Below, one piece after another: positions 8,500-24,168 of a stretch of 37,713 nt of DNA; the stretch's first letter is position 1, and each line of letters begins with the position of its first letter. A model generated the notes under the pieces. That model did not search any database. It was given only the letters and a program-made list of their open reading frames with translations, and was not told the origin of the DNA. The stretch is taken from contig JARLJS010000108.1 of assembly GCA_031291075.1 (NCBI GenBank), forward strand, positions 1-37,713, in the 5' to 3' direction. The translations under genes and the position numbers were made by a program. This DNA comes from Nevskia sp. (GTDB lineage: Bacteria > Pseudomonadota > Gammaproteobacteria > Nevskiales > Nevskiaceae).

Positions 8500-8916
8500 T
8501 CAGGACGGCTTGGGCATCCCCAGGCGCTCGAACAGTATGTCCGGCGACACCGGGCACATCTCGTTCGTCCCGATCCGCACGGCCACCTGTACGGATTCGC
8601 CCTTGGTCAGGCGCACGCCGGTGGCATCGTCCCTCACCAGGTATTCGATCCTCAGGCAGCTTTCCCATTCGACCAGCGTGGCGCGCACCCGCACTTTCTG
8701 CCCGAACAGCGAGGGCTTGATGTAGCGCATGCGCATGTCGATCAGCGGCCACAGATAGCCGCTGGCCCGCATGCGGTCGTAGTTGTAGTCGAAACTGTCC
8801 AGCAGCGCGCAGCGCGCGATCTCGAAATACTTGGCGTAATGGCCGTGCCAGACAATGCCGACCACATCGACATCGTGGAACGGCACCAGAATCTCCACCT
8901 CGACGCTGCGTTTCAT
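8500..8916 (-). CDS. Acyl-CoA/ACP thioesterase, 4HBT hotdog family
   Basis: The 138-residue protein is a full-length single hotdog of the YbgC/4-hydroxybenzoyl-CoA thioesterase type. The segment FHDVDVVGIVWHGHYAKYFE holds the family's active-site Asp followed by the G-x-V-x-H/Y turn into the long helix. Similar small thioesterases occur in aryl polyene and related FAS/PKS clusters (ApeK), where they release or proofread acyl chains. It is the last gene in the direction of the biosynthetic cluster, separated from the outer-membrane barrel gene by 186 bp filled with repeated hairpins. It may therefore be expressed separately or by read-through. The acyl substrate cannot be told from sequence. 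Confidence 0.8.
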   Translation of the reverse strand: MKRSVEVEILVPFHDVDVVGIVWHGHYAKYFEIARCALLDSFDYNYDRMRASGYLWPLIDMRMRYIKPSLFGQKVRVRATLVEWESCLRIEYLVRDDATGVRLTKGESVQVAVRIGTNEMCPVSPDILFERLGMPKPS

Positions 8917-8967
8917 GGTATCGATGCGCCCCCTATGCGCGCCCTTGGTGCAGGCATACCGGTTGCT

Positions 8968-9073
8968 CCCCTCTCCCGCTTACGGGAGAGGGGTAGGGGA
9001 GAGGGGCTTTGAACGGGACGAACAGCCCCTCTCCCGGCCCTACGGGCCACCCTCTCCCGCAAGCGGGAGAGGG
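8968..9073. repeat. Composite extragenic palindrome block (ctctcccg family)
   Basis: Three interlocking hairpins fill the gap between the barrel and thioesterase genes. cccctctcccg (8968-8978) pairs with cgggagagggg (8983-8993). gggagaggggct (from 8997) pairs with agcccctctccc (from about 9023). ccctctcccgc (9050-9060) pairs with gcgggagaggg (9063-9073). This looks like a BIME-type cluster of REP elements. It differs in sequence from the ggcggatta hairpins elsewhere in the window. It may act as a transcript stabiliser or attenuator inside the operon. Confidence 0.75.
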
Positions 9074-9102
9074 AAAGTAGTGTGCACGTAGCGAAACATG
9101 CC

Positions 9103-10368
9103 CTAGTAGAAGTAACGTAACAGGATCTGCCAGACCGAGGACTGCGGTGCGGCGCCGAATTCGCTGGTCGAGTCGCCACAGTCGGTCTGCCATTGAATGG
9201 CCAGGTCCACCCGGTTCAGGTGATAGCGCGCTTCCGCCCATTGCAGGTGGCTGTGGTCGACCAGGTTGTAACGGGCGAACCCGCTCAGGTCCAGGTGCTG
9301 GACGAAGGCGTCGTTCCATCCCGCATAGAAGAACACGGCCTGCCTGCCGGGGAGCTCCTGCGCGTTTGCCGTGTAGAGGAAGTACTGCCCGTAGGCCTGC
9401 GGCGACTGGTGCAGCAGCGTGTCCAGGCCGGAGCGATTGAGGGCGGCGCCGTCGTACTCGTATTCGAATGTGAGGGATACGTTGCCGGACGTGGTGTAGG
9501 AGGCGCCGGTGGAGAAACGCTGGTGGAAGCGGTCCTTCTGCTCGGATCCGAGCGCCTGCATTTCCTGTGTGGGGCCCGAGCCGCCGCTCCATTCCAGGAA
9601 CGCGACGGTCGAATCGTTGAGCAGGGCGATCGTATTGAGCCCAAGCTGCGGCGGATGGGAGCCGTCGTCGAACAGCAGCGCTCCCAGGTTGACGTCCTCG
9701 CCGATGCGCTGCGCCAGCGCGATCAGCCCGCGGTTCTGGAAATTGGTGGCGCCCCAGTCCGGGCTGAACGAGGCATTGTTGTCGTGGACCGCCAGCTTGG
9801 GCGAGAACATCGCGCTGACGGAGCCGCCGTTCCACAGCATCTGCCCCCTGGCCATCGCACTGCCGAGCCGGTTCTCCTTGAGGCTGGCCGGGTCCACCGA
9901 AACGATCGAGCGGATCGCGCCCGCGCGGAAATAGTCCGTGGGGTTGTAGCCGAGCGCCACGCCGTGCAGCACGTTGATCCGCCCGAGGTCGGCGCTCCAG
10001 TCCGATCCGGCCTGCCAGCTGAGGTAGCCCTCCTTGAGGGTGTTGATGTTGGCGTGACGCTGGCCGAAGGCGGAAGGCGGCCCCTGGATGTCCCAGCGGT
10101 CGGCGAAGCTGGCGCGCAGGGAGTGCCACTGCGATGTTTCGCCCTGGACGCCGAGCGACAGACGGCGCGTGTCCACCTCGCCGCCATCCGCCCCGCGCAC
10201 GGAAACCAGCCCGACGGCGGGTTCGCCGAAAAAGCGCCAGTTGGATGCGCGCGCGGTCTCCTCCGGCGTGGTGTCGGCCAGCTTGAGCGCGTCGGTATCG
10301 GAGTCGGCCATGGCGGCGGAGCTGGCCGCCAGGGCGAGCAACAGCGGCAGGGCGGGCCCGCCTCTCAT
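9103..10368 (-). CDS. Outer-membrane beta-barrel protein of the biosynthetic cluster
   Basis: The 421-residue protein has a signal peptide (LPLLLALAASSAAMA, cleavage before DSD) and then alternating polar/aromatic beta strands such as NVSLTFEYEYDGAAL and VDLAIQWQ. It ends in LLRYFY, the C-terminal aromatic signature recognised by the Bam machinery. It resembles DUF1302-like or alginate-export-type barrels, but I cannot place it in a family with certainty. The start ATG (10366-10368) overlaps the stop of the LolA-like gene by four bases (ATGA), so the two are translationally coupled. Together with that gene and the upstream ABC transporter it suggests a dedicated route for a hydrophobic product to the outer membrane. 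A pore or a receiving platform are both possible. Confidence 0.72.
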   Translation of the reverse strand: MRGGPALPLLLALAASSAAMADSDTDALKLADTTPEETARASNWRFFGEPAVGLVSVRGADGGEVDTRRLSLGVQGETSQWHSLRASFADRWDIQGPPSAFGQRHANINTLKEGYLSWQAGSDWSADLGRINVLHGVALGYNPTDYFRAGAIRSIVSVDPASLKENRLGSAMARGQMLWNGGSVSAMFSPKLAVHDNNASFSPDWGATNFQNRGLIALAQRIGEDVNLGALLFDDGSHPPQLGLNTIALLNDSTVAFLEWSGGSGPTQEMQALGSEQKDRFHQRFSTGASYTTSGNVSLTFEYEYDGAALNRSGLDTLLHQSPQAYGQYFLYTANAQELPGRQAVFFYAGWNDAFVQHLDLSGFARYNLVDHSHLQWAEARYHLNRVDLAIQWQTDCGDSTSEFGAAPQSSVWQILLRYFY

Positions 10369-11165
10369 TCCGGCGAGAACCGGGGCAGGTAGTCCGCCTG
10401 CAGCCAGGTGTCCGGGATGTCCCGCTTGACGAAGTCCGAATAGCGCATCACCGTGACCCAGTTGGGGTTGAGGCCGTCGATGATCACCATCTCGGTGGGG
10501 CGCTGCTGTCCCAGGTTGTCCTGGAAGTGCCGGAAATACGCGCTTTTCAGGAGCCGGCCGCTCTCCGAGAAGTAGCGCGCCTTGATCGGACGGCTGGTGG
10601 CGGCGGCGATCCACATCTCGATGTGGTCGTAGGTCACGTCCGGGGCGGCGGCGGCCAGCTCGAGCTTGTAGCAGTGCTGGTTCTGCCGTTCGCCGTCCTG
10701 CACATCCTCTTCGCCGGCCAGCTTGGCGCGGTAGTCCTTGGCCAGGTTGACCGTCACCACGTCGCCGTTCGCGGCCTGTCCCAGCAGCCGCTGCTGCGGG
10801 GAAAGACGGATGGTGGACTTCCCCGTGGGGTCGTAGAACCACAGGTCGTTGCCGTTCTTCAGCATCAGCTTGTTGGCATCGCGGGGCGGTGCGACGAAGC
10901 GGATCAGGCTGCGGAACTGGCCGCTGTTCTCCGCGGCCTTCGAATACACCTGCAGCGCGGTGGAATCGGTCTGCTTGCCGTCGCGGTATTCGATCAGCGT
11001 GGTGGTGATGCTGAAGGGATACTGCGGATTGCGCACATCGTCGCTGGCGGCAAGGATGTGTTGCGCGTCGGGCGGAGCGGCGGCGGCGGCCAGCGCGAAC
11101 AGCAACGCCGCCAGGACCGTTGCCCGGCCGGCTGCCTTGCCGCGCTCAAACGTGACGTAGGGCAT
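10365..11165 (-). CDS. LolA-like periplasmic carrier (outer membrane lipoprotein-sorting protein family)
   Basis: This 266-residue protein has a signal peptide (ATVLAALLFALAAAAA) and a domain with the hallmarks of the LolA-like PF17131 family. These include SLIRFVAPPRDANKLMLKN, then DLWFYDPTGKSTIRLSPQQR, and a C-terminal VMRYSDFVKRDIPDTWL. I chose the ATG at 11165, which overlaps the permease 3' end by 20 bp. Its class carries lipoproteins or other lipids across the periplasm. Here it lies between a LolE/MacB-type permease and an outer-membrane barrel, the position expected for a carrier of the cluster's product. Which lipid it binds is inference. Confidence 0.82.
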   Translation of the reverse strand: MPYVTFERGKAAGRATVLAALLFALAAAAAPPDAQHILAASDDVRNPQYPFSITTTLIEYRDGKQTDSTALQVYSKAAENSGQFRSLIRFVAPPRDANKLMLKNGNDLWFYDPTGKSTIRLSPQQRLLGQAANGDVVTVNLAKDYRAKLAGEEDVQDGERQNQHCYKLELAAAAPDVTYDHIEMWIAAATSRPIKARYFSESGRLLKSAYFRHFQDNLGQQRPTEMVIIDGLNPNWVTVMRYSDFVKRDIPDTWLQADYLPRFSPE

Positions 11166-12567
11166 TGACGATCTCCATCTTGGCGGCACGGTGGGCGGGC
11201 CACCATGCCGAACCCATGACCAGCAGGATCAGCGTCGCGGCGATGCCCAGGATGAACAGGAGATTCTGCTTTCCGGACAGCCAGATGAAATAGAGCACCT
11301 GGTCGACACGTCCCGGCGGTACGTAGCTGAGCCCGGAGTGATTGACTACCGCGGCCAGCAGCAGGGTGATCATCACGCCGAGCACGACGCCGAGGATGCC
11401 GAGGACCAGGCCTTCGTAGATGAACAGCATCTGGATGCCCCGGCGCCGCATGCCGATGGCGCGCAGGGTGCCGATCTCCACCGTGCGCTCGACGATGGAG
11501 GTATTCATCGTGTTGCTGACGGTGAACAGCACGATCACCCCCATCAGGATGGCGATGAAGCCGAAGATGGCGTTGAAGAAGCTGATGAATTGGCCGTAGG
11601 TGGGATTGATGGTGGCGAAGTCCAGCACGTCCAGCTCCTGGCCGGGGAAGCTGGCGGCGAGAAGTTCCCGCAGCCGCGCCCTGGCCGGCGCGATCTGGCC
11701 GGTATGCTGGAGCTGCACCACGATGCCCGTGACCTGCGGCGCCGAGCGGCCGTAGATGAGCCGTTGCGCTTCCTCCAGGTGCATCATCAGGAAGACGTCG
11801 TCCAGCTCCTTGATCCCCTGGTTCCCCGCTTCGACCACGCTCAGGCTGACGACATTGGGCGCGCCGTGGGTATCGGCCGCGAGCACCTCGATGCGGGCCG
11901 CGCTGTCGTTCGCCGCGGGCTCGCCGGGTTCCCCGCGCGCTAAATCGCTGATGTCGGCGGGCGCCGCGGCCGCGTTGGCGGACTCCGGCGGCGGGGCCGG
12001 ATCCGGCGGGGCCTCCTGTTTGCAGTCGGGCACTTTCAGCTTGCGGCACAGGTGCAGTACGCGGGCCACCCCCATGCCGACCACGGCGGCGTCCGGGGCC
12101 GTGCCGGTCAGCGACAGCGGCTTGCCGTTGTTGATGGCGGGGAAGCCGTAATCGTTCCAGGCCTGCAGCTTGTTCTGGTCGTCGACGTCGATGCCGGTGC
12201 CGATGACCGTGCGGGAGACACCCGCGGCGAAATTTCCGGCGATGCCACCGAGCTGGAGCGTCGGCGTGACCACCGTGAGCATGGGGGCGAGCACCGGGTC
12301 ATGCTGCACGGCGTCGATGATCTGCTGGTAGTCGGAGATGCCGTAGGCCGCCGGATTGCCGCCGCCGTAAAGATAGTAGCCCTTGCGCTGGATCTGCAGG
12401 TGCCCGCTGCGCTTCACGAATTCCGTCTGGGTGCCGTAAATGATCCCCCTGCTGTATCCGCCGAATAACAGGATCGACTGCGTGCCGACGACGATGGCGA
12501 GCAGGGTGGACAGGGTGCGCCGGCGGTTGCGCAGCAGGTTGCGAAGGGCGAGCAGCAGGTTCCTCAC
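11146..12567 (-). CDS. ABC transporter permease, FtsX/MacB/LolE type
   Basis: The 473-residue protein has the type VII ABC layout: a basic N-terminus (ALRNLLRNRRRTLSTLLA) and first membrane helix at about 20-40, a long periplasmic domain to about 305, then three helices (about 315-340, 365-395, 430-455) and the MRRRGIQ coupling region. The C-terminus, WPAHRAAKMEIVNALR, is characteristic of the FtsX family. The periplasmic part carries a Pro/Ala-rich insertion (about 185-222) just after two cysteines, Cys174 and Cys182, that could form a disulfide. The start overlaps the ATPase stop by four bases (ATGA). Such permeases extract lipids or lipoproteins from the inner membrane or drive tripartite efflux. 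No MacA or TolC partner is present, which favours a Lol-like role. Confidence 0.87.
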   Translation of the reverse strand: MRNLLLALRNLLRNRRRTLSTLLAIVVGTQSILLFGGYSRGIIYGTQTEFVKRSGHLQIQRKGYYLYGGGNPAAYGISDYQQIIDAVQHDPVLAPMLTVVTPTLQLGGIAGNFAAGVSRTVIGTGIDVDDQNKLQAWNDYGFPAINNGKPLSLTGTAPDAAVVGMGVARVLHLCRKLKVPDCKQEAPPDPAPPPESANAAAAPADISDLARGEPGEPAANDSAARIEVLAADTHGAPNVVSLSVVEAGNQGIKELDDVFLMMHLEEAQRLIYGRSAPQVTGIVVQLQHTGQIAPARARLRELLAASFPGQELDVLDFATINPTYGQFISFFNAIFGFIAILMGVIVLFTVSNTMNTSIVERTVEIGTLRAIGMRRRGIQMLFIYEGLVLGILGVVLGVMITLLLAAVVNHSGLSYVPPGRVDQVLYFIWLSGKQNLLFILGIAATLILLVMGSAWWPAHRAAKMEIVNALRHV

Positions 12568-13268
12568 GCGCTGCCCTCCGCCGCGGCACCACGTTCCACC
12601 GAGATGATGCGACCGTCGCGGATCTGCATGCTGTCGTCCGCCTGGAGCATGACCTTGGGATCATGCGAGGAAAATATGAAAGATACGTGGTGATCGCGCT
12701 GGATGCGGCGCATCAGCGCGATGATGGCCGAGCCGGTCTCGCTGTCGAGATTGGCGGTGGGCTCGTCGGCGAAGACCACCTTGGGCTCAGGGGACAGTGC
12801 CCGGGCGATGGCGACTCTCTGGCGTTGCCCTCCGGAGAGCTGGCCGGGGCGGTGCCCGGCCTTGTCGGAAAGCCCGACCGCGTCCAGCAGCGACCGCACC
12901 CGGTCGCGGCGGACCTTCGCCGGCACCTGGGCGAGCAACAAGGGGTACTCCACGTTTTCGTAGGCGGTGAGCACCGGGAGCAGGTTGAAGTTCTGGAAGA
13001 TGAAACCCAGGTTGCGCGCCCTGAAGTCGGACAGGGCGTCGTCCGACAGGTCCTTGACCGGCTGTCCCGCGATGAGGATCTCCCCCTGGTCCGGGCGGTC
13101 CAGGCATCCCATCAGGTTGAGCAGGGTGGTCTTGCCGCTGCCGGACGGTCCCGAGATCACGGTAAAGCAGTTGCCGCGGATTTCCAGGTTGATGTCGATC
13201 AGCGCCGGGATGTCCACCGCGTCCAGCTTGTAGGTCTTGCCAACGTTCTTGAGGACGATCGGGTGCAT
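12564..13268 (-). CDS. ABC transporter ATP-binding protein, LolD/MacB type
   Basis: The 234-residue protein is a complete nucleotide-binding subunit. Walker A is GPSGSGKTT (40-48), the Q-loop is FIFQNFNLLP, the signature is LSGGQRQR (144-151), Walker B and D-loop are VVFADEPTANLD (about 164-175), and the H-loop His is in FIFSSHD. The FQNFNLLPVLTAYENVEYPL segment is typical of the LolD/MacB/FtsE subfamily. It is the first of four tightly overlapping transport genes (ATPase, permease, LolA-like, barrel). It lies 67 bp after the malonyltransferase gene, so synthesis and transport probably share a transcript. It would power extraction of the pathway product from the inner membrane. Confidence 0.92.
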   Translation of the reverse strand: MHPIVLKNVGKTYKLDAVDIPALIDINLEIRGNCFTVISGPSGSGKTTLLNLMGCLDRPDQGEILIAGQPVKDLSDDALSDFRARNLGFIFQNFNLLPVLTAYENVEYPLLLAQVPAKVRRDRVRSLLDAVGLSDKAGHRPGQLSGGQRQRVAIARALSPEPKVVFADEPTANLDSETGSAIIALMRRIQRDHHVSFIFSSHDPKVMLQADDSMQIRDGRIISVERGAAAEGSA

Positions 13269-13335
13269 GGCTGCTCGCCGGGTGCGGTGCGGTTGGGCGA
13301 CTTCTTGTCGTTGTAGTATGTATCGGTACAGCGGG

Positions 13336-14211
13336 CTATGCGACTACGGCTTTGCGGATCTCGTTCACCATGCGGATCAACGGGGTGGGGCGGGCGCCGG
13401 CCAGTTTAGGCCCCAGTTCCACAAACTCGTCCACGCCCTGCGCCGCCAGGTAGCGGATGCAGCCCACCCAGTCCACCGAGCGCGCGATCTGCGCGGCGAG
13501 GGTGGTTTCCAGCTCCCCGCCGCGATATGGCAGTGCGGTGACGTTGGAGATCACGGGGATCCGCGGGTCGCGCAGCTCGAGGCCACGCAGGAAGCTCTCG
13601 AACGCCGGCTGCTGCGCCTGCATGTACCGCGAGTGAAACGGACCGCTGACGTTGACCGGCAGGCAGTCGACGCTCTGCGCCTGGCAGGCCTGCTCCAGCC
13701 GGGCGACGTCCCCGGCGGGGCCGGACACCACGGTCTGGAGCGGAGAGTTGAAGTTGGCCAAGTCGATGCTTTCGAGGCGGTGGTCGCGCAGGAGCTGGGC
13801 CAAGTCCTCGGCGCCGATGCCGAGCACTACCAGCATCCCTCCGCCGGCAACTTCGGCCATCAGCTGGCCGCGCTTCTGCACCATGCGCAGGCCGGTTTCG
13901 AAATCGAAACACCCCGCCGCCAGCAGGGCATTGCATTCGCCGAGGCTGTGGCCGGCCAGGAAATGGGGTTGCGCGTCGGACGAAGCGCCGTCCCGCCAGG
14001 AGAAATAGCGCAGGGCATTGACGACGAACAGCGCCGGCTGGGTGTACTGGGTCAGGCGCAGGAGGTCGTCCGGATCCTCCAGGCAGAGCGTTTCGATGCA
14101 GTACCCCAGCACCGACGAAGCGAGTTCCGCCTGTTCCCGGTAGAGCGGGAACAGGTCTTTCCCCATTCCTTTGAATTGCGCTCCCTGTCCCGGGAAGAGC
14201 AAGGCCTTCAT
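13336..14211 (-). CDS. Discrete malonyl-CoA:ACP acyltransferase, trans-AT polyketide type
   Basis: The 291-residue acyltransferase has FPGQGAQFKGMG at the N-terminus, the catalytic Ser89 in AGHSLGE, Arg114 in VQKRGQLM and His193 in GPFHSRYM. The F after P in GPFHS is the malonyl-selecting arrangement. The segments LGYCIETLC and TQYTQPALFVVNALRYF are characteristic of the stand-alone acyltransferases of trans-AT polyketide systems rather than of housekeeping FabD. It would load malonyl units onto the cluster's ACP. A gap of 120 bp separates it from the diiron gene upstream and 67 bp from the ABC ATPase downstream. The trans-AT affiliation rests on motif memory and should be tested by phylogeny. 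Confidence 0.85.
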   Translation of the reverse strand: MKALLFPGQGAQFKGMGKDLFPLYREQAELASSVLGYCIETLCLEDPDDLLRLTQYTQPALFVVNALRYFSWRDGASSDAQPHFLAGHSLGECNALLAAGCFDFETGLRMVQKRGQLMAEVAGGGMLVVLGIGAEDLAQLLRDHRLESIDLANFNSPLQTVVSGPAGDVARLEQACQAQSVDCLPVNVSGPFHSRYMQAQQPAFESFLRGLELRDPRIPVISNVTALPYRGGELETTLAAQIARSVDWVGCIRYLAAQGVDEFVELGPKLAGARPTPLIRMVNEIRKAVVA

Positions 14212-14331
14212 TCCTCAGCCCCCTTGTTGCACATGGCGTCGGTCACGCGCTGCCCGCCAGTCAATGGCCGCAGGCAGGCGTAGCCGTGTGCTGGCGTGGC
14301 CGGCCCCGGTCCGACAGGCTCTATGTCCGGC

Positions 14332-15171
14332 TCAGGCGTTGGCGGGAACCGCAACAGCGCTCCTCGCCTTGCGCTTGGCAAGATGCTCGTTCTTGAATTT
14401 GATATACACGTCGTAGATATGATCAGGATCCGGGATATCGACCCCGGCCAGCTTGCTGATGCGGGACGCGATCTGCTTGCGGGTCTTCTTCCCCGCGCTG
14501 TCGCCGAGTCCATCGAGGCTGCGCACGGTCAGGAAGACCGGGTGGTTGATGAACTGGTCGGTCTGCAGGAACACCCAGGCGGACCGCAGCACGATGGACC
14601 GTTCGTAGTCCGGGTCTGCCGACGATTCGATGGTCCTGCGCGCGTAGTTCTCGAACCCCACCGAGTGGCGCATCTCGTCCTTGCCCAGCTTGAAGGTGAT
14701 GTCCTTGAGCACCGGCTCGGGCATGGTCTCCGACATCGTCATGTACATGCTGCCGGCGACGATTTCCGAGATGACGTTGAACGTCAGCATCTCTACCTTG
14801 GACTTCGTCATCGGCGTGATGATGCGTCCTTCCTTCAGGTACTTGCCGGGCAGTTGCACGCCGTTCAGGGACAGCCATTTGACCAGGGCATGCGGATGCT
14901 TGGTTTCCTCGTACAGCCACACCGCCAGCCACTGCGTGAAATCGATGTCGTCCTCGAACATGGACATGAACGACTGCGTCGCCGAATAGGTGGTCAACTC
15001 GCCGAACGCGACCTGCTTGACCATTTCGAGGAGATGGGGGGTAATCAGGGACTTGTCGATGCTGTCCCAGGCGATATCCTTCATGTACCAGCGGGCCTTT
15101 TCGGCCACGTCGAACAAAGAGTAGTAAGACAAGTCCGAAAAAACGTCATTGACCGATACCGACGCGCTCAT
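14332..15171 (-). CDS. Ferritin-fold diiron enzyme, probable oxygenase/desaturase of the cluster
   Basis: The 279-residue helical protein carries a full carboxylate-bridged diiron set: Glu58 (FGELTTY), Glu89-x-x-His92 (EETKH), Glu136 (VISEIVAG) and Glu166-x-x-His169 (KDEMRH). The order E, ExxH, E, ExxH matches acyl-ACP desaturases, AurF-type N-oxygenases and ribonucleotide reductase R2 relatives. No membrane segment or signal peptide is visible, so it should act in the cytoplasm, plausibly on ACP-bound chains. The start has aggag seven bases upstream. It sits between the ketoreductase (67 bp away) and the malonyltransferase. Whether it desaturates, hydroxylates or cleaves the chain cannot be told. 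It is the main tailoring enzyme visible in the cluster. Confidence 0.78.
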   Translation of the reverse strand: MSASVSVNDVFSDLSYYSLFDVAEKARWYMKDIAWDSIDKSLITPHLLEMVKQVAFGELTTYSATQSFMSMFEDDIDFTQWLAVWLYEETKHPHALVKWLSLNGVQLPGKYLKEGRIITPMTKSKVEMLTFNVISEIVAGSMYMTMSETMPEPVLKDITFKLGKDEMRHSVGFENYARRTIESSADPDYERSIVLRSAWVFLQTDQFINHPVFLTVRSLDGLGDSAGKKTRKQIASRISKLAGVDIPDPDHIYDVYIKFKNEHLAKRKARSAVAVPANA

Positions 15172-15238
15172 AGGACTGCTCCTGCAAAAAAGTGGATGGA
15201 ACGTAATATCCGCCCGGATTTGGTGAAGCCTGGGGCAG

Positions 15239-15976
15239 TCAGGCCATCCCTCCGTTCACTCCGACGATCTGACCGGTGATGTAGCTGGCGGCCTCCGAGG
15301 CCAGAAAGCCGACCAGGGCCGCTACTTCCTCGGTCCGCCCCGGGCGCTGCATCGGCACGATCATTTTCAGCATGGCCGGATCGAACTTGCCCTTGGCCAT
15401 GCCACCGTCGATCACCCCCGGCGCCACCACGTTGACGGTGATATTGCGGCTGGCCAGCTCGTGCGCCAGCGACTTGGTCGCGCCATGCAGGCCGGCCTTG
15501 GCGGCGGAGTAGTTGGTCTGGCCGCGGACTCCGATAACGCCGGATACCGAGGAAATATTGATGATCCGGCCCTTGCGATTGCGGATCATGGGCATCAGCA
15601 GGGGCCGGGTGACGTTGAAGAAGCCGTTCAGCGTGGTGTTGATCACGCTGTCCCAGGCATCGAACTCCATTCCGGCCATCGGGCTGTCGTCCACCGTGCC
15701 CGCGTTGTTCACCAGCACGTCGACCGGCCTGGTTTCCACCAGGCCGGACAGGACCTGCTGCGCCTGGGCCGTGTCGGTGACGTCGAAGACGATCGTCTCC
15801 GCCTTCCCGCCCGTTTCGCGGATCTGCCGCACGACCATCTCGGCCTTGTCCGGGTTCCGGTTGGCGTGCACGTAGACCATCAGGCCCTGTTTGGCCAGTT
15901 CGAGACAAATGGCGGAGCCGATGTCGCCGCTGCCGCCGGTGACCAGCGCTGTCTGCAGGGAGGCCATGGTTCCCAT
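15239..15976 (-). CDS. 3-oxoacyl-ACP reductase, FabG/ApeQ type
   Basis: This 245-residue classical short-chain dehydrogenase has TGGSGDIGSA for cofactor binding, NNAG in strand 4, Ser143 in IISSVSG-like context (NISSVSGVIG), and Tyr156-x3-Lys160 in NYSAAKAG. The C-terminal YITGQIVGVNGGMA is typical of FabG. It would reduce beta-ketoacyl-ACP with NADPH in each extension cycle. The ATG at 15974-15976 directly follows the dehydratase stop codon, with gaggag just upstream. A second in-frame ATG nine bases later is also possible. Its place between the dehydratase and the diiron enzyme supports a cluster-specific role rather than housekeeping lipid synthesis. Confidence 0.9.
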   Translation of the reverse strand: MGTMASLQTALVTGGSGDIGSAICLELAKQGLMVYVHANRNPDKAEMVVRQIRETGGKAETIVFDVTDTAQAQQVLSGLVETRPVDVLVNNAGTVDDSPMAGMEFDAWDSVINTTLNGFFNVTRPLLMPMIRNRKGRIINISSVSGVIGVRGQTNYSAAKAGLHGATKSLAHELASRNITVNVVAPGVIDGGMAKGKFDPAMLKMIVPMQRPGRTEEVAALVGFLASEAASYITGQIVGVNGGMA

Positions 15977-16459
15977 CTACTCCTCGTGCTCGTCGGTGAC
16001 CAGCGAAATGGTGCCTTCCGCGACGGTCTTGCCGTCGATCGTTCCGTCGACGTGATATTGATAGATGCGAGGCCCGATCAGCACGACCTCCGAAGTCAAC
16101 ACCAGGCGGGAGTCCGGGTGCTCGTCCAGGTAGCCCTCCTCGAAATTGAAGTTACGGGTTACCGCCAGGTAAGCCGACGACACCGGTCCCAGCCTGGCAT
16201 AGCCCAGCATCGGCTCGTTCGCCTTGATCGAGACCAGCGCGAGGTGGATGGCCGCCGCCTGGGCGCCATACTCGATCACGTGGACGTACGACATCCGGCC
16301 GTTCACCGCAAGCGGATTGTCCGCGTGTAGATGCGACACCGCGCTGCAGACGATCTTCTTGTTGTCCCATTGCTCGACCCGGTCGAGCAGCATCATGTGA
16401 CCCTGATGCGGGGTCAGCATGGTGAGCTGCTTGGCGTCGATCTGCTGCGGCATGGTCAT
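15977..16459 (-). CDS. 3-hydroxyacyl-ACP dehydratase, ApeP-like hotdog protein
   Basis: The 160-residue hotdog protein starts TMPQQIDAKQLTMLTPHQG and contains PHQGHMMLLDRV with His18, then HLHADNPLAVNGRM and VIEYGAQAAAIHLAL. This is the pattern of the COG4706 predicted hydroxyacyl-ACP dehydratases found in aryl polyene clusters (ApeP), in which an H-x-x-x-NPL box precedes the long helix. The ATG at 16457-16459 overlaps the stop of the chain-length-factor gene (ATGA). It would remove water from 3-hydroxyacyl-ACP to leave double bonds. Two dehydratases in one cluster fit a polyene or partly unsaturated product. Confidence 0.82.
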   Translation of the reverse strand: MTMPQQIDAKQLTMLTPHQGHMMLLDRVEQWDNKKIVCSAVSHLHADNPLAVNGRMSYVHVIEYGAQAAAIHLALVSIKANEPMLGYARLGPVSSAYLAVTRNFNFEEGYLDEHPDSRLVLTSEVVLIGPRIYQYHVDGTIDGKTVAEGTISLVTDEHEE

Positions 16460-17247
16460 GGCATAACCTCGACCTGCAGGAGCTGGCAGCCGGAGTAGGG
16501 CAGTGCTACCGTCGCCGGCCGTTTTTCCGCCAGGGCCATCAGCAGCGGCAAGCTGCCGGCGGCCGACGAGCGCTTGCTGACCTCCGCCAGCACCGGGTGG
16601 TCGACCGGCGTGATGTCGGTGCCGTCGCGCAGGTCGAGCTGGATCGATGCGACGCGTTGACTGGTTGTGTGCGGGTTGAACAGAAAGCCGACTGCGAAGG
16701 GATCGATCGGCTTGCTCCCCGTGTGGATCTGGAGTATCGCCGGCGCGTCGTAAGCCACGTAGAGCACTGGGATGGATTCGGTCAGCGCTGTCGTGTAGGC
16801 CTGCAGCAGGCCCACCGCCATGCTGTAGGAGGCGGCGGTGACGGTGGTGGCGCCCGCGGTGTTCTTCGTCAGGATGCCCAGGTGGCCGGCGGCCGCGTTC
16901 AGGATGACGTTGTGGAAGCGGGTGGGCGAAACCGATTTGGTTTCCTGCGTCAGCGAGCAAAAGATGTGGTGGGAGATGTTGAGATCGCCCTCCGTCGTCG
17001 CGAACACCAGCTCGACATTGTTCGGATTGACGTCCGTGCCTTCCAGCGCCTTGTCGGCGGCATAGATGGCGAGCTGCATGTGCTGGGTGGTCCGCCGTTT
17101 GATCGCCGAGGTGAGGAAAGGCGACTGCAGTGGCGTCGTCAACTCCTCGTTGTAGCGCTCCGGCGCCTGCAGCACCGGAATCGAGTCGTGCCAGCCCGGC
17201 AGCCCGGGGCCGTATAGCGAGACCGTCTCGATCTGCAGCGGTTTCAA
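16456..17247 (-). CDS. Chain-length-factor-like beta-ketoacyl synthase (PF13723 type)
   Basis: The 263-residue protein is shorter than true ketosynthases (about 400) and has the layout of the Ketoacyl-synt_2 proteins of aryl polyene clusters. The equivalent of the nucleophile elbow reads TVTAASYSMAVGLLQAY, with no Cys, so it should not condense by itself. It likely pairs with the adjacent ketosynthase and sets chain length. I start it at TTG 17245-17247, where TTGA overlaps the ketosynthase stop and gggaga lies five bases upstream. An open frame extends further upstream to 17352 but would overlap the ketosynthase by about 110 bp. The unusual start should limit its translation relative to its partner only if coupling is weak. 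Confidence 0.8.
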   Translation of the reverse strand: MKPLQIETVSLYGPGLPGWHDSIPVLQAPERYNEELTTPLQSPFLTSAIKRRTTQHMQLAIYAADKALEGTDVNPNNVELVFATTEGDLNISHHIFCSLTQETKSVSPTRFHNVILNAAAGHLGILTKNTAGATTVTAASYSMAVGLLQAYTTALTESIPVLYVAYDAPAILQIHTGSKPIDPFAVGFLFNPHTTSQRVASIQLDLRDGTDITPVDHPVLAEVSKRSSAAGSLPLLMALAEKRPATVALPYSGCQLLQVEVMP

Positions 17248-18437
17248 TTCAGTCTCCCGAAAATGAGAACGGCGTTGTTGCCGCCGAAACCCATCGAGTT
17301 GGTGAGGCCATAGCGAATTCGCCGGGTCTGATTGTCGAGCGACACATTGCACTTGAGGCCGTCGGCAATCTCGCGCGTGTTGTGAATCCCCGGCACCAGG
17401 TCGTTCTGCATGCCGAGCATCAGGATGATGGCTTCGGTGATTCCGGCCGCGCCCTGCGTGTGGCCGGTCAGGCCTTTGGTCGAGCTGACGGGGACGCGAT
17501 CACCGAAAATGCGGTGTACGGCGGCGTCCTCGGCCATGTCGTTCATCGGTGTGGCGCTGCCGTGGGCGTTGATGTAGTCGATGTCCTTTGCATCGAGCCC
17601 GGCGCGCTCGAGCGCGTGCAGCATGGCGGTCTCGATGCCCTTGCCCTCCGGATGCGGCGCGGTCATGTCATGGCCGTCGGCGGTCTCGCCGTACCCCACC
17701 AGGGCCAGGGCGTCGTCCTGCAACGGCTCCCTCTCGAGCAGGGCGAAGCCGGCGGCGGCGCCGATGCTGATGCCGTCGCGTGCGCTGTCCCACGGCCTGC
17801 ACGGTTCGGTCGACAGCACGCCGAGGGAGCGAAAGCCGTTGATCAGCGTTTCGCTGTACCCCTCGACGCCCGCGACGATGGCCGCGTCGCAGAAACCCAT
17901 CTGCAGATAGCGGTGCGCGGTCGCAAACACCTTCGCGCTGGAAGAGCAGGCGGTCCCGATGGTGGCGTAGGGTCCGGTGAAATCCAGCTTGCGCCGGACG
18001 TACTGCATGATCGCGTCCAGGCTGACGCTGTAGGCGCATTTGAGATTCAGCGGCGGAGGCCGGTCCAGTGCGACCTCGTGGTCCCGATAAAGCTCCTCGA
18101 TGACGTGGATGCCGCTGGTAATGGTGCCGAGGAAGCAGCCGATCCGGTTCTTGCCGTATCTGCTCTTGGCCCGCTCGACGGCCTCCGTGAAGCCATCCTG
18201 TTCCAGCGCCGTCTGAACGATGCGGGTGCAGTCGTTGTCGTAGGCCGCCAGCTCGCCGTTGATCGGGCGCAAGGCTTGCGAATCCACGAAGCCGAACCAT
18301 GTGCGTCCCAGATCGCCCATGGAATGCTCGCGCAGGCCGCTGGCCTTGTTCCTGATCGAATCCAGCGTGGCCGCATTACCCACGCCCAAAGCGCTCGTGA
18401 GTGTGAATGCCGTCACGTAAGTGGGTGCAATAGCCAT
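17244..18437 (-). CDS. Beta-ketoacyl-ACP synthase (condensing enzyme of the cluster)
   Basis: The 397-residue protein is a complete KAS I/II-type ketosynthase. The active-site Cys164 is in GTACSSSAK, with His292 in NAHGSAT, Lys321 in STKGLTGH and His326 in GHTQGAAG, and a C-terminal NSMGFGGNNAVLIF glycine loop. It would extend ACP-bound chains with malonyl-ACP. The start ATG at 18435-18437 has aggga seven bases upstream. It overlaps the chain-length-factor gene by four bases (TTGA), the tight pairing expected for a KS-CLF heterodimer. Its sequence style is that of aryl polyene and highly reducing type II systems rather than housekeeping FabF. Confidence 0.92.
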   Translation of the reverse strand: MAIAPTYVTAFTLTSALGVGNAATLDSIRNKASGLREHSMGDLGRTWFGFVDSQALRPINGELAAYDNDCTRIVQTALEQDGFTEAVERAKSRYGKNRIGCFLGTITSGIHVIEELYRDHEVALDRPPPLNLKCAYSVSLDAIMQYVRRKLDFTGPYATIGTACSSSAKVFATAHRYLQMGFCDAAIVAGVEGYSETLINGFRSLGVLSTEPCRPWDSARDGISIGAAAGFALLEREPLQDDALALVGYGETADGHDMTAPHPEGKGIETAMLHALERAGLDAKDIDYINAHGSATPMNDMAEDAAVHRIFGDRVPVSSTKGLTGHTQGAAGITEAIILMLGMQNDLVPGIHNTREIADGLKCNVSLDNQTRRIRYGLTNSMGFGGNNAVLIFGRLN

Positions 18438-18522
18438 GTTCGTTCCCTGTCCGCCGCCAACAAAGACCCGCGCACATCCACTCCGCCCGCCATACGGCGG
18501 GAGACTGGCACCAGACCGCGTC

Positions 18523-18864
18523 TTAGTTCGTCGTCGCTGCTGCTGCAATCGGCGCCGCGTGAAAATCTCCGGCGGCAATCTGATTGTCGTCGCAGTCGAG
18601 GCAAACGAAGCCGTAGTTGTCTCGTGCCTTGCTGTGGATCTTGACGATGAGAGTCTTGCCCGGCCTCAACACATGCAGGTTCTTCACCTTCACCATGCGC
18701 TTGAGGTACATGCCGCTCCTGAACTGCGCAAAAGCCACCCGGACATGCTCCATGATCAAGGCGCCCGGGATGATCGGGTTGCCAGGGAAATGTCCGTTCG
18801 ACGCCGGGTGGTTTTCCGCAATCGCCACTCGATATTCGAATGACGATGACGGTTCAGGCAGCAT
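18523..18864 (-). CDS. Hotdog 3-hydroxyacyl-ACP dehydratase, FabZ/ApeI-like
   Basis: This 113-residue single hotdog contains NHPASNGHFPGNPIIPGALI. The catalytic His is expected in GHFPGNP (about residue 25), as in FabA/FabZ and the dehydratase domain of ApeI. The Asp/Glu that usually sits on the following helix may be Glu39 (LIMEHVR). It is shorter than FabZ (about 150). The ATG at 18864 overlaps the ACP gene by 11 bp; a GTG at 18873 is an alternative. It is the second dehydratase of the cluster. The C-terminal tail PIAAAATTN looks disordered. An 85-bp gap separates it from the ketosynthase gene. Confidence 0.8.
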   Translation of the reverse strand: MLPEPSSSFEYRVAIAENHPASNGHFPGNPIIPGALIMEHVRVAFAQFRSGMYLKRMVKVKNLHVLRPGKTLIVKIHSKARDNYGFVCLDCDDNQIAAGDFHAAPIAAAATTN

Positions 18865-19144
18865 TGGCCTCACTCAGTTCGGGCTGCTTGCTCTGCATCT
18901 TCTCGGCGACGAAAGCATGCAGGGTGCGGATGGTCATGAACGCCCGCCGCGTGGCTTCGTCCTTGGAGTCCAGCTTGATCTTGTAACGGTCGTTGATAAC
19001 CGCGCCGATTTCCAGTGCGTCGACCGAGTTCAGGTCCAGCGGCCCGCCGAACAGCAATGTTTCCGGCGTGATCTCGACATCGGCATCCAGGTTAAGGGTT
19101 TCGACAATGAGTTCGAAGAACTCCGCTTCCGACGGTATTTTCAT
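18854..19144 (-). CDS. Acyl carrier protein of the cluster
   Basis: The 96-residue acidic protein has the ACP helix pattern. The phosphopantetheine Ser is expected at Ser40 in GGPLDLNSVDALEIGAVI, where the usual D-S-L is N-S-V-D. It would carry the growing chain for the ketosynthase, reductase and dehydratases that follow. The cluster encodes its own Sfp-type transferase immediately upstream, which fits a carrier that differs from the housekeeping AcpP. The start at 19142-19144 follows a weak aaggtag site. The 207 bp before it is the largest gap in the core and may contain the main promoter. Confidence 0.88.
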   Translation of the reverse strand: MKIPSEAEFFELIVETLNLDADVEITPETLLFGGPLDLNSVDALEIGAVINDRYKIKLDSKDEATRRAFMTIRTLHAFVAEKMQSKQPELSEANAA

Positions 19145-19351
19145 AGTGGTTTCTCGCTACCTTCAGTTGAACGGTACTGCGTCAGAACAAAATACCGATC
19201 TGATAACTGACCGATTGTTTTGTTCCACTCACCAACTTCAACTTCCTTGAGCGTGCCGCTGCAGCGAACTACTGTCTGCGGAAAGAGAGACTGATGCGGC
19301 CGAAAAACGCTAACATACGAATGTAGGCGAGGCAAGCACCCATTTCGGTTT

Positions 19352-20110
19352 TTATCGAAAAGCGAATCCCAAGTCCGCGAGTTGCAAAGTTATATCGGTA
19401 CAGACGACCTCGCGGCGCGCCTGCACCGCCACGGCAAGCCGATGAAGCGGTGTGGGCGTGCTGCTCAGGAACGTCCATTCGCAGGGTGCCGGTACTGTGA
19501 CGCAATCGCGATGCAGGGCCGGCGCGGTTTCCTCAATGCGGTCGAATGTAATTCGCTGAAGCTCGGCGCTGAAGCCTTCGCCGGTCGCCTTGGCAAAGGC
19601 TTCCTTGAGCGTCCAGATCCGGAAAAACCGTTCTACCGCCTCGCTTTCCGAGCAGAGGCCAAGGCCGGCGATCTCGCTGTCGGTGAATACCATGCGGGCG
19701 ATGGAATGGATGTTGCGGGATGGATTCACGATCTCGACGTCCACGCCGCATCCACAGTCCAGCGTGATCACGCAGGCAACCAGATTGCGCGTGTGGCTGA
19801 GGTTGAAGCAAAGCGGTGGCAGCGCCGGATCGTTGTACAGCGCGGGCTTGCCGTAAGGGCCCGCGGCAAATGCCCAGTCGGCCGGATCGACGGCGGCATA
19901 ACGCGACAGGCTCGATCTCAGCAGGGCGTGGGCCGCGAGATAATCGTGCCGGGCGACGTCGGAATGAAACCGCTCGTAGCGCGCGAGCTCCTCCGTGTTG
20001 AGCATGTGCTTGCCCGCTGCACGAAGACGCTCGCTCGCAATCGCGTCCGTCCGGGCCGTCCAGACGTGGGCCTGCGTCTCCAGCGCGGCCAGCAAGACGT
20101 TCGTCCCCAC
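19352..20110 (-). CDS. 4'-phosphopantetheinyl transferase, Sfp type
   Basis: This 252-residue transferase has the Sfp double-domain length. FNLSHTRN (about 102-109) is followed by the Mg-binding GVDVEIV (Asp124, Glu126) and WTLKEAFAKATG (Trp166, Lys169, Glu170, Lys174), the three landmark motifs. It moves phosphopantetheine from CoA to the Ser of carrier proteins, here presumably the ACP encoded next. The start is GTG at 20108-20110 with gggag six bases upstream. It is the first gene of the minus-strand cluster and faces away from the SCP2 gene, so the 252-bp gap upstream should hold divergent promoters. Confidence 0.9.
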   Translation of the reverse strand: MGTNVLLAALETQAHVWTARTDAIASERLRAAGKHMLNTEELARYERFHSDVARHDYLAAHALLRSSLSRYAAVDPADWAFAAGPYGKPALYNDPALPPLCFNLSHTRNLVACVITLDCGCGVDVEIVNPSRNIHSIARMVFTDSEIAGLGLCSESEAVERFFRIWTLKEAFAKATGEGFSAELQRITFDRIEETAPALHRDCVTVPAPCEWTFLSSTPTPLHRLAVAVQARREVVCTDITLQLADLGFAFR

Positions 20111-20362
20111 ATCGCTCCCCTTTCGTGGTGAAGCTTCCGTAGTCCGGCGATCGCGCGTATCACGGCAGCAATTCCTGGTTTCATTGTGCGCGCGGACTTG
20201 AGCACGCCGCTGAGAAGTTCGTCACGCTACGGCGTGGTCGATCGTTGACACCTCAACTCGCCGGCCGCAATAATGATTTGCGCTACCCGCAGTTTCTTCC
20301 CCGTGACGCCCCGACACGCGCGAGGCGTGTTCTCCAACGAATATCCATCGCGGAGCATCAAG

Positions 20363-20680
20363 ATGACTGCTGAAGAGATGCTGCAACATCTTCCCGCTGC
20401 GTTCAATCCGGCCGCTGCCCATGGAGTCGAGGCGGTGCTGCAGTTCAACGCCTCGAAGCCGCACTACGCCACGATCAGCAACGGCGCCTGCAGCGTCGCC
20501 GCCGGAACCGCTTCGAAGCCGGATGTCACGCTGAACATCGATGATGACAATCTGGTTAAGCTGATGAAAGGCGAGTTGAACGGCGTCACCGCGTTCCTCA
20601 CCGGCAAACTAAGGCTCAATGGCGATCTGGGCCTGGCGCAGCGGATCTCCTCCTTCTTCGACGCCTCGCGGCTTCTTTGA
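20363..20680 (+). CDS. SCP2 sterol-carrier-like lipid-binding protein
   Basis: The 105-residue protein matches a minimal SCP2 domain: MTAEEMLQHLPAAFNP, then VLQFNASKPHYATISNG, KPDVTLNIDDDNLVKLMKGEL and the C-terminal GKLRLNGDLGLAQRI. Such domains form a hydrophobic tunnel that binds fatty acyl chains or sterols. I chose the ATG at 20363; an open frame extends further upstream but the domain begins here. It is divergent from the phosphopantetheinyl transferase gene and 37 bp before a methyltransferase gene on the same strand. It may hold or present a product of the neighbouring lipid pathway, but that is inference from position. Confidence 0.82.
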   Translation: MTAEEMLQHLPAAFNPAAAHGVEAVLQFNASKPHYATISNGACSVAAGTASKPDVTLNIDDDNLVKLMKGELNGVTAFLTGKLRLNGDLGLAQRISSFFDASRLL

Positions 20681-20717
20681 ACGAGGGCGGCGCTCCGTAA
20701 GGAGCCGCTGCGTTTCC

Positions 20718-21515
20718 ATGAAGCCTATTTCGAAGACCGCGTACTACTGCTGCGGCGTCAGGATGCAGGACGCCGAGAGTCGCAATCCGGTGTGCAACGA
20801 CCGGTACGCGCGTCTGTTCATGGATGATGCCGGCCTCGAAATCTTCCGTCCTTTCAGATCGGAGAAAAAGGCCAACGCCGGCAACGTGGCGCGTGCGCGG
20901 ATCATCGACGATTACCTGCACGAGCAACTCAAGGCGAATCCCGGCCTGCTGGTGGTGACGGTAGGCGCGGGATTCGACAGCCGCCCCTACCGGCAGAAGG
21001 GCGGAAGCTGGGTGGAGGTCGACGAGCCCCAGCTTATCGCCTACAAGAATGAAAAGCTGCCGATCGCGGATTGTCCGAACCAGTTGCAGCGGATTCCGAA
21101 CGATTTCGCGACGGAATCGATCGTCGACAAACTGCGTCCCTTCGCCGGGCAGCAGCCGGTGGTCTGCGTGGTCGAAGGGGTGTTGCTCTATCTCGATCCG
21201 GCCGCGCGCCAGCAGCTGTTCCAGACCTTGCGGGAGCTGTTTCCGCATCACACGCTGATCTGCGACGTGATGCAGCCGAAGTTCCTGAACAGCTATGCCC
21301 GGCCCGTGCAAAGCCGGATCTCCGGTCTCGGCGCCTCGCTGTCCGCGATCGACAAGCCGCAGGCCGTGTTCGAGGAGAGCGGCTACCGCCTGTTGCGGGT
21401 GACCTCGATATTCCGCCGGGCGGTCGAACTGGGGCTGGTCGATATTCCGCGGCTGGTGCTGAAGTTCATGCAGACACTTTGCGATGGCTACTCCATTTAT
21501 CTGCTGGAGGCCTGA
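20718..21515 (+). CDS. SAM-dependent methyltransferase, leucine carboxyl methyltransferase (LCM/TcmP) family
   Basis: The 265-residue protein begins with AYYCCGVRMQDAESRNPVC and has the SAM-binding VTVGAGFDSRPYR, then WVEVDEPQLIAYK, and EGVLLYLDP. These are the landmarks of the LCM-like O-methyltransferases, which include leucine carboxyl methyltransferase and the polyketide methyltransferase TcmP. It could methylate a carboxyl or hydroxyl group. It follows the SCP2 gene by 37 bp and converges with the TPR-like gene. An aaggag lies about 13 bases before the ATG, rather far. Whether it tailors the product of the adjacent biosynthetic cluster is an open possibility. Confidence 0.8.
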   Translation: MKPISKTAYYCCGVRMQDAESRNPVCNDRYARLFMDDAGLEIFRPFRSEKKANAGNVARARIIDDYLHEQLKANPGLLVVTVGAGFDSRPYRQKGGSWVEVDEPQLIAYKNEKLPIADCPNQLQRIPNDFATESIVDKLRPFAGQQPVVCVVEGVLLYLDPAARQQLFQTLRELFPHHTLICDVMQPKFLNSYARPVQSRISGLGASLSAIDKPQAVFEESGYRLLRVTSIFRRAVELGLVDIPRLVLKFMQTLCDGYSIYLLEA

Positions 21516-21549
21516 AGCCTTTTCGTCACGGCATGGATTCAAAGGTTCC

Positions 21550-22251
21550 CTAACGCTGCAGCTCGCGCGCCGCTTTCATGCCCCAGTCCGAGGCCGGCGC
21601 GGCGTCACGGGCTTTTTCCAGCCAGTTTCTGCGTTGGTCCTGTTCCGACGGCGCCGACTCGAGCATTGCGAGCTGGTAGCAAGCTTCGGCGAGCAATTGC
21701 GGGTCGCCGTCCTTGCGCGTCTCCAGCGCCTGCGCAATGAAGGTGAAGTCCTGCCGGGCGATGGGCTTGCGCTCGAACAGGTCCGGCAGCAGCAGGCTGT
21801 TGGTGGCCCGCACCAGGCGGATGACGATGTTGGTGTCGTCCAGCCGCACCGCTTCGTCGATCCGGGCGATGCCGAGCCTGACCTTCTGCACCTTGGTGAG
21901 AACGTTCCAGGAATCGCGGCCGACCATGGTGGTGGCGCTACCCCTATAGGCGAGGGCAACGTGGTCCTGCGGCGCAAGTCGATTCAATTGGTCCAGGTAG
22001 TCGAGGGCTTTCTCCGATGCGCCGCTGGCGCCGAGCACCGCCAGGTTGTGATAGGCGATGCCCAGGGTGCGGAGTGCGTCCAGGTCGCCCGGTGTGGCCG
22101 CGTAGCGGCGCGCCGCCTCCCCGGCGAGTGCTTTGAGGGCATCCTGGTCCATCAGCGAATAAAGCGCTGCCGCCGACGCCGGCGGTTGTGGCGGCGGGGC
22201 GGCGGTGGCGGCGAGCGCAAGCAGGCCGAGGACGAACAATCCCCGCATCAT
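21550..22251 (-). CDS. Secreted TPR-like protein of unknown function
   Basis: The 233-residue protein begins MMRGLFVLGLLALAATAAPPP, a signal peptide followed by a Pro-rich linker. The rest is helical with TPR-like character: AALYSLMDQDALKALAGEAA, LDALRTLGIAYHNLAVLG, KALDYLDQLNRLAP, LAEACYQLAMLES. The repeats are irregular, and I do not recognise a named family. It converges with the methyltransferase gene (34 bp apart) and diverges from the FabI-like gene. The start is the first of two adjacent ATGs at 22249-22251. A role as a periplasmic scaffold is a guess. Confidence 0.65.
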   Translation of the reverse strand: MMRGLFVLGLLALAATAAPPPQPPASAAALYSLMDQDALKALAGEAARRYAATPGDLDALRTLGIAYHNLAVLGASGASEKALDYLDQLNRLAPQDHVALAYRGSATTMVGRDSWNVLTKVQKVRLGIARIDEAVRLDDTNIVIRLVRATNSLLLPDLFERKPIARQDFTFIAQALETRKDGDPQLLAEACYQLAMLESAPSEQDQRRNWLEKARDAAPASDWGMKAARELQR

Positions 22252-22439
22252 GGGTATCCGCTGCGGGCGGCGGGAGCGGGGGCTGTCATGAGTCCGTGTA
22301 CGGGGTTGAAGCGACTTCGCTCCGGGACGCAAGAATAAGTCGTGCGTGCGGCAGGAACAACATGCGTAAGGTTTGCCGCTTCGATATGATTGACCGCGAG
22401 GCGTCCCGGTTGAATTGCGCAAATCTTTGATTTTTCCGG

Positions 22440-23252: not shown

Positions 23253-23260
23253 CGCGGGTT

Positions 23261-23374: not shown

Positions 23375-23470
23375 TTTCAGGGGTGGATGCCTGGTTCCAA
23401 CCTGTAATGCGGCTGCTGCGCCGCGTCGCTGCCGGGCCTGCCGGGAGCGGTCACCAAAAGGGAGAGCGTC

Positions 23471-24088: not shown

Positions 24089-24168
24089 CCGATGAAGCTT
24101 GCGGCGCCGGTGCGTGCGGAGCACCGCCGGCTCTGACTCTCAGCCAGGCTGCAGGATGAATTCTTCAG

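Follow-up and report, generated by a model that had tools for sequence, protein, structure and literature searches.

The locus described here, in which a type II synthase core of aryl polyene (APE) type adjoins a set of export genes, lies in a 37,713-nt window (the whole stretch of DNA analyzed, to which all positions refer) of contig JARLJS010000108.1 from Nevskia sp. The host genome is 96.86% complete with a contamination value of 3, and the contig fits this genome: its PQQ-dehydrogenase gene shows 76–89% DNA identity to that of six same-genus genomes. A preliminary description, made from the sequence alone, had named functions for 14 same-strand genes, and this gene list was borne out. All 14 open reading frames (ORFs) are intact and lie on the minus strand between positions 8500 and 20110, and in a codon-usage test trained on five other genes of the window, the own frame of each outscored the other five frames as coding, by a margin that is small in absolute terms for dehydratase 1 (0.11) and the phosphopantetheinyl transferase (0.09). 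Gene starts were picked by inspection of ribosome sites and neighboring genes and correspond to the higher coordinate in each line below.

19352–20110, minus strand: Sfp-type phosphopantetheinyl transferase (PPTase; PF01648, PF22624)
18854–19144, minus strand: acyl carrier protein (ACP; PRK09184 below cut-off; 29–46% identical to APE ACPs)
18523–18864, minus strand: dehydratase 1 (DH1), hotdog, FabA/Z-like (PF07977, just above the Pfam cut-off)
17244–18437, minus strand: ApeO-type ketosynthase (KS; PRK09185, 405.7 against a cut-off of 407)
16456–17247, minus strand: ApeC-type chain length factor (CLF), TTG start (PF13723)
15977–16453, minus strand: dehydratase 2 (DH2), hotdog (weak NCBIfam FabZ match; no Pfam match)
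15239–15976, minus strand: ketoreductase (KR), FabG type
14332–15171, minus strand: diiron, acyl-ACP-desaturase-like protein (diiron ligands; family profile)
13336–14211, minus strand: discrete malonyl-ACP transferase (MAT), FabD-type (TIGR00128, over cut-off)
12564–13268, minus strand: LolD-like ABC ATPase (PF00005; best NCBIfam model the LolD model TIGR02211, below cut-off)
11146–12567, minus strand: LolE/MacB-like FtsX permease (PF02687; TIGR02212 below cut-off, LolCE best)
10365–11165, minus strand: LolA-like periplasmic carrier (PF17131, 128.8 bits, over cut-off)
9103–10368, minus strand: outer-membrane barrel-type protein (profile of six module barrels, E 3.7e-7)
8500–8916, minus strand: 4HBT thioesterase (PF13279)

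The spacing is operon-like: five gene pairs overlap by 4–20 bases and other gaps measure 0–120 bases, with larger gaps only upstream of the ACP gene (207 bases) and upstream of the thioesterase gene (186 bases, containing palindromes). A consensus scan gave no excess of promoter-like sites (2, versus 2.8 in shuffles) or terminator-like sites (14, versus 11.3).

The synthase core is, by its sequence relationships, derived from APE ancestry; its resemblance to APE clusters had been noted in the preliminary description. The best Protein Data Bank (PDB) matches of the KS are Xenorhabdus 6qsp_A (1.9e-58) and Acinetobacter 7f28_B (8.3e-56), ahead of any FabF, and the sole PDB matches of the CLF are the partner chains 6qsp_B and 7f28_A; according to parts of PMC8358021, these are ApeO-ApeC entries. 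In a tree of 47 rows (short search, no bootstrap), the KS falls inside the APE KS clade with a Shimodaira-Hasegawa-like approximate likelihood ratio (SH-aLRT) value of 97, on a long branch (1.57) that has no supported sister, and the CLF branch in a tree of 36 rows is longer still (2.39). DH1 is homologous to the dehydratase that precedes the KS in APE loci and DH2 to the one that comes after the CLF, and the KR and the two hotdog dehydratases stand in APE order.

The KS keeps the ACSSS, HGSATP and KGLTGH motifs, and it deviates at 21 of the 98 columns in which at least 97% of 34 APE-type KSs agree. Its Asp257 aligns with His257 of AbApeO, a position that is His in all 34 of these KSs and that is discussed as conserved in parts of PMC8358021. 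Of the 56 columns that show at least 85% conservation in 35 other CLFs, the CLF retains 35; among the 21 invariant columns, 5 are lost (V to I, H to L, Y to H, E to Q and L to I). These changes in the two proteins fit a different starter or chain, and may also have arisen by drift. The CLF had earlier been called Cys-less; this holds across the KS active-site region, to which the claim is restricted since a joint KS-CLF alignment placed the CLF unreliably, and two Cys residues occur elsewhere in the protein. The conserved CLF Gln of Lysobacter ORF16 (parts of PMC3691225) corresponded to none of the 85%-conserved columns of the 35 CLFs and was not used.

For comparison with APE loci, 39 stretches (L030, L158 and L089–L125) were searched with the proteins encoded by the APE cluster that the genome has on a different contig (C263) and with the window proteins at 1e-4, and the own-APE proteins were searched against the window at 1e-3. 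The 37 stretches with KS and CLF matches were kept and L108 and L120 were dropped; the locus counts are lower limits, because some stretches end at contig edges (shortest 5.4 kb). The order ACP-DH1-KS-CLF-DH2 is common among APE loci, the block KS-CLF-DH2-KR recurs in L089, L109, L112 and L114, and the window KR shares 55–59% identity with its counterparts in six APE-type loci (L089, L109, L112, L114, L115 and L116). Most of the 37 loci also contain matches to the usual partners, namely an AMP ligase (34/37), a small membrane protein (33/37), an LPLAT-type acyltransferase (32/37), an MMPL protein (29/37) and a GT2 glycosyltransferase (27/37). None of these five proteins of C263 has a match in the 37.7-kb window at 1e-3, which upholds the earlier statement that aryl ligase, acyltransferase, glycosyltransferase and MMPL exporter are absent; for the ammonia lyase, also given there as lacking, no separate search was made. 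The cluster is therefore not filed as an APE cluster, because two defining APE features, aryl starter activation and the MMPL protein with acyl- and glycosyltransferase, are lacking from the window. In the reverse comparison, the diiron, MAT, permease, LolA-like and barrel proteins matched in 0 of the 37 loci, the ABC ATPase in 2 and the PPTase in 1. In three same-phylum stretches of family code f211 (L117, L118 and L119), the KS-CLF loci are divergent, with a KS 35–38% and a CLF 26–29% identical to those of the window, and include matches to the ligase and MMPL proteins.

Since C263 belongs to the same genome, the absent functions could be borrowed from its APE cluster. That cluster comprises KS2, MMPL, GT2, ACP, ligase, lipid-A-type acyltransferase, KR, thioesterase, dehydratase, KS and CLF genes; its stretch (L030, 18306 bases) reads as an APE/xanthomonadin-like cluster with a halogenase-like FAD gene, and the last ORF at the contig end is transposase-like by eye. 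The window locus might then be a second, diverged APE cluster that takes its aryl starter, its anchoring enzymes and perhaps ApeR from C263 and in which the ABC module replaces MMPL export. We regard this as unlikely. It would explain the APE-type core and gene order, the closeness of the KR to APE KRs and the presence of ligase, acyltransferase, GT2 and MMPL genes in the same genome, and KS-CLF pairs without most APE genes nearby occur elsewhere (L110 and L111), so that missing APE partners in a stretch are not unique per se. The thioesterase also speaks for it. This protein shares 79% identity with the thioesterase of the APE cluster on C263, beside which it is nested in a clade of five (98/96). 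The other three members are two copies from the same genus and a long-branched row of a different genus, and a further thioesterase of the genus (L092) falls outside. The window thioesterase is, as judged from this tree, a copy from the local APE lineage. The window KS, however, is only 44% identical to the KS of C263, and this difference from the 79% of the thioesterase suggests that a young APE part has been joined to an old, divergent core. Asp257 of the KS and the lost CLF invariants argue against a second APE cluster, as do the locus's own malonyltransferase, PPTase, diiron protein and neighboring FabI, which (the single PPTase match aside) belong neither to the 37 loci nor to the E. coli genes listed in parts of PMC8253772. 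The MAT is 36% identical to the other FabD-like protein of the genome.

In the diiron protein, eight residues (E58, E88, E89, H92, E136, D165, E166 and H169) are invariant in all 14 aligned sequences, i.e., the window protein and 13 relatives, and they include the six diiron ligands E58, E89, H92, E136, E166 and H169 in the pattern E, ExxH, E, ExxH. With a profile of the family, the top match was DesA2 of Mycobacterium tuberculosis (1za0; 1.3e-13), followed by a designed helix bundle (1e-11) and, at 1.3e-4 and weaker, by plant acyl-ACP desaturases and other proteins. Of the 14 aligned members, 10 match the Pfam family FA_desaturase_2 (E 0.01 or better); AurF models and EncFtn-like models are each matched by 8 as well, and some relatives match rubrerythrin models. 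The family thus resembles acyl-ACP desaturases of plants and M. tuberculosis in its six ligands, its profile match and its setting in an ACP pathway, and differs in that the window protein alone stays below the Pfam cut-off and its reaction is predicted only. Relatives were found in 2 of 84 other genomes of the order (26–29% identity), 17 of 368 of the class and 22 of 397 of the phylum, these samples partly overlapping, and none exceeds 35%. Neither a KS nor a CLF match was found in the 15 neighborhoods (9.8–19 kb) of diiron relatives. On plasmids, relatives occur in 4 records (28–30%), and none was found in phages. A match in Methylibium adjoins a crotonase gene and a gene for another iron enzyme, with no synthase, and a match in Burkholderia lies in an unannotated stretch.

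Downstream of the MAT gene, an ATPase, an FtsX permease, a PF17131 carrier and a barrel are encoded side by side. The ABC pair does not reach the Lol equivalog cut-offs (ATPase 217.1 against 307.75; permease 65.7 against 362.45), and the ATPase also matches the DevA model below its cut-off. Related permeases were detected in 15 of 273 other sampled genomes of the class, and the neighborhoods of 13 of these were compared: a LolA-like gene is present in 13/13 and an ABC ATPase in 12/13. In single-permease modules, an ORF of 403–441 amino acids comes after the LolA-like gene in 6 of 7 cases, the seventh (L156) running to the contig edge. A profile of these six ORFs scored the window barrel at 25.4 bits, compared with 4.4 for the best of 200 shuffles, and found weaker relatives in 4 of 6 two-permease modules (10.9–22.4 bits); one of the six matches the Pfam Wzi capsule barrel (6.6e-5), and the profile had no PDB match of note. 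The assignment of the window protein as a barrel is based on this module profile. Within the order, a LolA-like relative (1e-12) was found in 1 of 84 other genomes (G045), again beside an ABC ATPase and a permease. The ABC-LolA-like-barrel set is thus, from the conservation of its neighborhoods, a recurring module.

In three of the 13 neighborhoods (L147, L149 and L155), a gene for a small exported protein precedes the ABC ATPase gene, and a homologue lies in the window beyond the 14 genes.

21550–22251, minus strand: fifth module gene, small exported protein, TPR-like by eye (profile of three module genes, 39.4 bits, E 1.5e-10)

With the window gene as query, the top three of all ORFs were those of L147, L149 and L155 (1.6e-6, 9.6e-5 and 0.0075), and the next scored 0.27; the fifth-gene profile matched no other ORF of the window and 0 of 500 shuffles at E 0.5 or better. 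Neither the window barrel nor the fifth protein matched a Pfam or NCBIfam model, and the terms TPR-like and exported are a reading of the sequence by eye. Since this homologue sits at 21550–22251, the locus reaches at least 22.25 kb, and the end at 20110 that had been given for it has to be abandoned: with the fifth gene and a second FabI, the locus extends to about 23.25 kb and holds about 18 genes. The proposal that the cluster has a delivery system of its own stands, as a dedicated envelope-delivery module, on the LolA-like gene in 13/13 neighborhoods, the barrel profile and the fifth-gene profile.

The module may nevertheless serve another purpose, i.e., the synthase and ABC-LolA-like-barrel genes may be neighbors without a common role, the module sorting a lipoprotein or other envelope cargo. 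Among named proteins, those of the Lol system come closest to the ABC pair, and several modules lie beside regulators or unrelated genes (L147, L149 and L155). This explanation is nevertheless improbable, given the continuous minus-strand operon with its 67-base gap and overlapping genes, the position of all ABC-pair matches below the Lol cut-offs and the modules that lie near polyketide synthase (PKS) or acyl-activating genes. The latter include neighborhoods with a KS-acyltransferase PKS (L150), AMP ligases (L146 and L153), a thioester reductase (L153) and an AMP ligase with a wax synthase (L208); the lipid-gene neighbors of five modules were picked by eye, without a statistical test. In L145 (194–14963), the module is on the same strand as PKS genes (dehydratase-PPTase and acyltransferase-KR), a thioester reductase gene and a sulfotransferase gene, perhaps a locus for a sulfated PKS lipid with the same exporter.

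Several known systems share parts with the locus. APE and xanthomonadin clusters (E. coli apeA-R; Lysobacter ORF1-17) have in common with it the ACP, two hotdog dehydratases, the ApeO-type KS and short CLF, the FabG-type KR, the thioesterase and the core order. A LolA-like step is also common to both, since the E. coli APE list includes LolA-like ApeL together with LolB-like ApeN and the RND transporter ApeM (parts of PMC8253772). The window differs in having no match to the AMP ligase, acyltransferase, GT2 and MMPL proteins and in adding the malonyltransferase, PPTase, diiron protein, the ABC-LolA-like-barrel module with its fifth gene and the neighboring FabI. In DevBCA-TolC, a MacB-type ABC transporter exports heterocyst glycolipids (parts of PMC5985334); the likeness lies in a MacB-type ABC system dedicated to an envelope glycolipid, whereas no adaptor or TolC was recognized in the window, which has a LolA-like carrier and a barrel instead. 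The LolCDE-LolA route is similar in its LolD-like ATPase, LolE-like permease and LolA-like carrier, and differs in that the window has a single permease, an ABC pair below the Lol cut-offs, and a barrel and a small exported protein in addition.

Three genes on the opposite strand flank the fifth module gene or lie between it and the PPTase gene; their association with the locus is by position.

20363–20680, plus strand: SCP2 lipid-binding protein (PF02036 on ORF 20273–20680; start by eye)
20718–21515, plus strand: LCM/TIGR00027-type methyltransferase (PF04072; TIGR00027 below cut-off)
22440–23252, plus strand: second, divergent FabI-type enoyl-ACP reductase (PF13561; score ranking)

The second FabI remains below the NCBIfam equivalog cut-offs (best PRK06997, 374.7 against 440) and is 51% identical to the genome's other FabI. 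Matches at 1e-60 occur in 46 of 58 genomes of the family, its own included, and no other exceeds 53% identity. In the kalimantacin system, a FabI copy is reportedly used for resistance, and since the second FabI adjoins the cluster, the product might be a released acyl compound that inhibits FabI, with this copy conferring self-resistance and the ABC module acting as an efflux or sorting system. We consider this very improbable: the FabI also fits a role in chain reduction, its catalytic residues are ordinary by eye, and the presence of a LolA-like carrier and a barrel indicates an envelope function.

The reading to which we give about an even chance is that a derived APE-type type II synthase makes a non-aryl acyl lipid that is exported by a Lol-like route. 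Up to chain release, the cluster probably works like an APE cluster. The PPTase would activate the single ACP, the discrete malonyltransferase would load malonyl, and the ApeO/ApeC-type KS-CLF would extend a non-aryl starter (acetyl or malonyl, or an acyl-ACP from primary metabolism). The KR and both dehydratases would process every cycle, and the neighboring FabI may saturate some cycles. Using oxygen, the diiron protein is predicted to desaturate or hydroxylate the acyl-ACP, and the thioesterase would help to release the acyl product, which could be free, methylated or placed on a headgroup by enzymes encoded elsewhere. After the product has arrived at the outer leaflet of the inner membrane, the LolD/LolE-like pair would extract it, the LolA-like protein would carry it, and the barrel, aided by the fifth, TPR-like protein, would deliver it into or through the outer membrane. 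Because MacB-family ABC proteins perform periplasmic work and do not move cargo across the inner membrane (parts of PMC5985334), the lipid would have to be flipped to the outer leaflet in a step of its own, for which no gene was seen. In a more specific and tentative form, the locus could encode a self-contained secondary fatty-acid synthase, descended from the APE pathway, for a new modified surface lipid. A Lol-like exporter made up of five parts (ATPase, permease, LolA-like carrier, small exported helper and barrel) would ship this lipid, and its relatives in other bacteria would do the same for PKS-type lipids.

Several observations weigh against a non-aryl lipid with a dedicated exporter. 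A thioesterase of the APE lineage favors APE-like chemistry, and drift may account for the length of the KS and CLF branches. On its own, the diiron protein does not reach the FA_desaturase_2 cut-off (17.8 against 22.7 bits; E 0.0016), and its single-sequence structural model reached a predicted local distance difference test (pLDDT) value of only 39. In pairwise comparison, single barrels match the window barrel no better than shuffles do; only the profile scored above them. The fifth gene occurs in only 3 of the 13 module neighborhoods, the profile being null in the other ten, and several modules have no recognized lipid gene nearby. The FabI, SCP2 and methyltransferase genes are on the opposite strand and are linked to the pathway by position only. 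Finally, the final lipid is left unexplained, as no acyl- or glycosyltransferase was recognized in the locus. The preliminary description had suggested a new class of outer-membrane polyene or modified acyl lipid. The product may be a polyene or may be partly saturated, given the adjoining divergent FabI and the lost KS and CLF invariants. Its location in the outer membrane is a possibility, and the pathway may be either a new class or a rebuilt APE pathway.

KS matches (1e-45) were obtained in 27 of 85 genomes of the order, its own included (38–48% identity), and CLF matches (1e-8) in 22 of 398 genomes of the phylum, its own included, the others at 25–33%. Exact-peptide scans of an 84,980-species genome collection, which can miss relatives, found no diiron relative and one KS (47%), located in an APE-like cluster without the new genes. 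On plasmids, the KS matched 332 records, all below 60% and the best among the matches listed at 44.5%, and the CLF matched 6 records. No second copy of the gene set was found in the collections searched, and no description of it was recognized among the open-licence PMC papers listed, judged by title and the start of the abstract; the earlier view that the set is undescribed agrees with these genome, plasmid and literature searches. New here are the fifth module gene, the second, divergent FabI, the thioesterase of the local APE lineage and the lost KS and CLF invariants. With its starter, anchor and export components all exchanged, such a natural variant would reveal which elements of the APE core can be transferred, and the locus provides a concrete gene set for ABC-LolA-like-barrel export of acyl products. 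If the proposed reading is true, it would add to MMPL/RND and DevBCA-TolC a further kind of route dedicated to bringing acyl lipids to the outer membrane.

A comparison of positions 20200–37713 with 18 same-genus genomes for insertion boundaries by synteny gave scattered matches among those listed, and two GH94 neighborhoods had no other gene in common with the window. No tRNAs or RNA families were found in the window. The gap between the barrel and thioesterase genes contains one further feature.

8968–9073, no strand: palindromes resembling repetitive extragenic palindromic (REP) elements

The thioesterase gene may be a separate unit. At 1534–2922 on the plus strand, 5.6 kb from the thioesterase gene, a DUF1329 protein (PF07044; LolA_like match below cut-off) represents a further LolA-related envelope protein, and genes for a proteasome-like protein (4414–5136, minus strand; below cut-off) and a transglutaminase-core protein (5190–6035, minus strand) are adjacent to each other.

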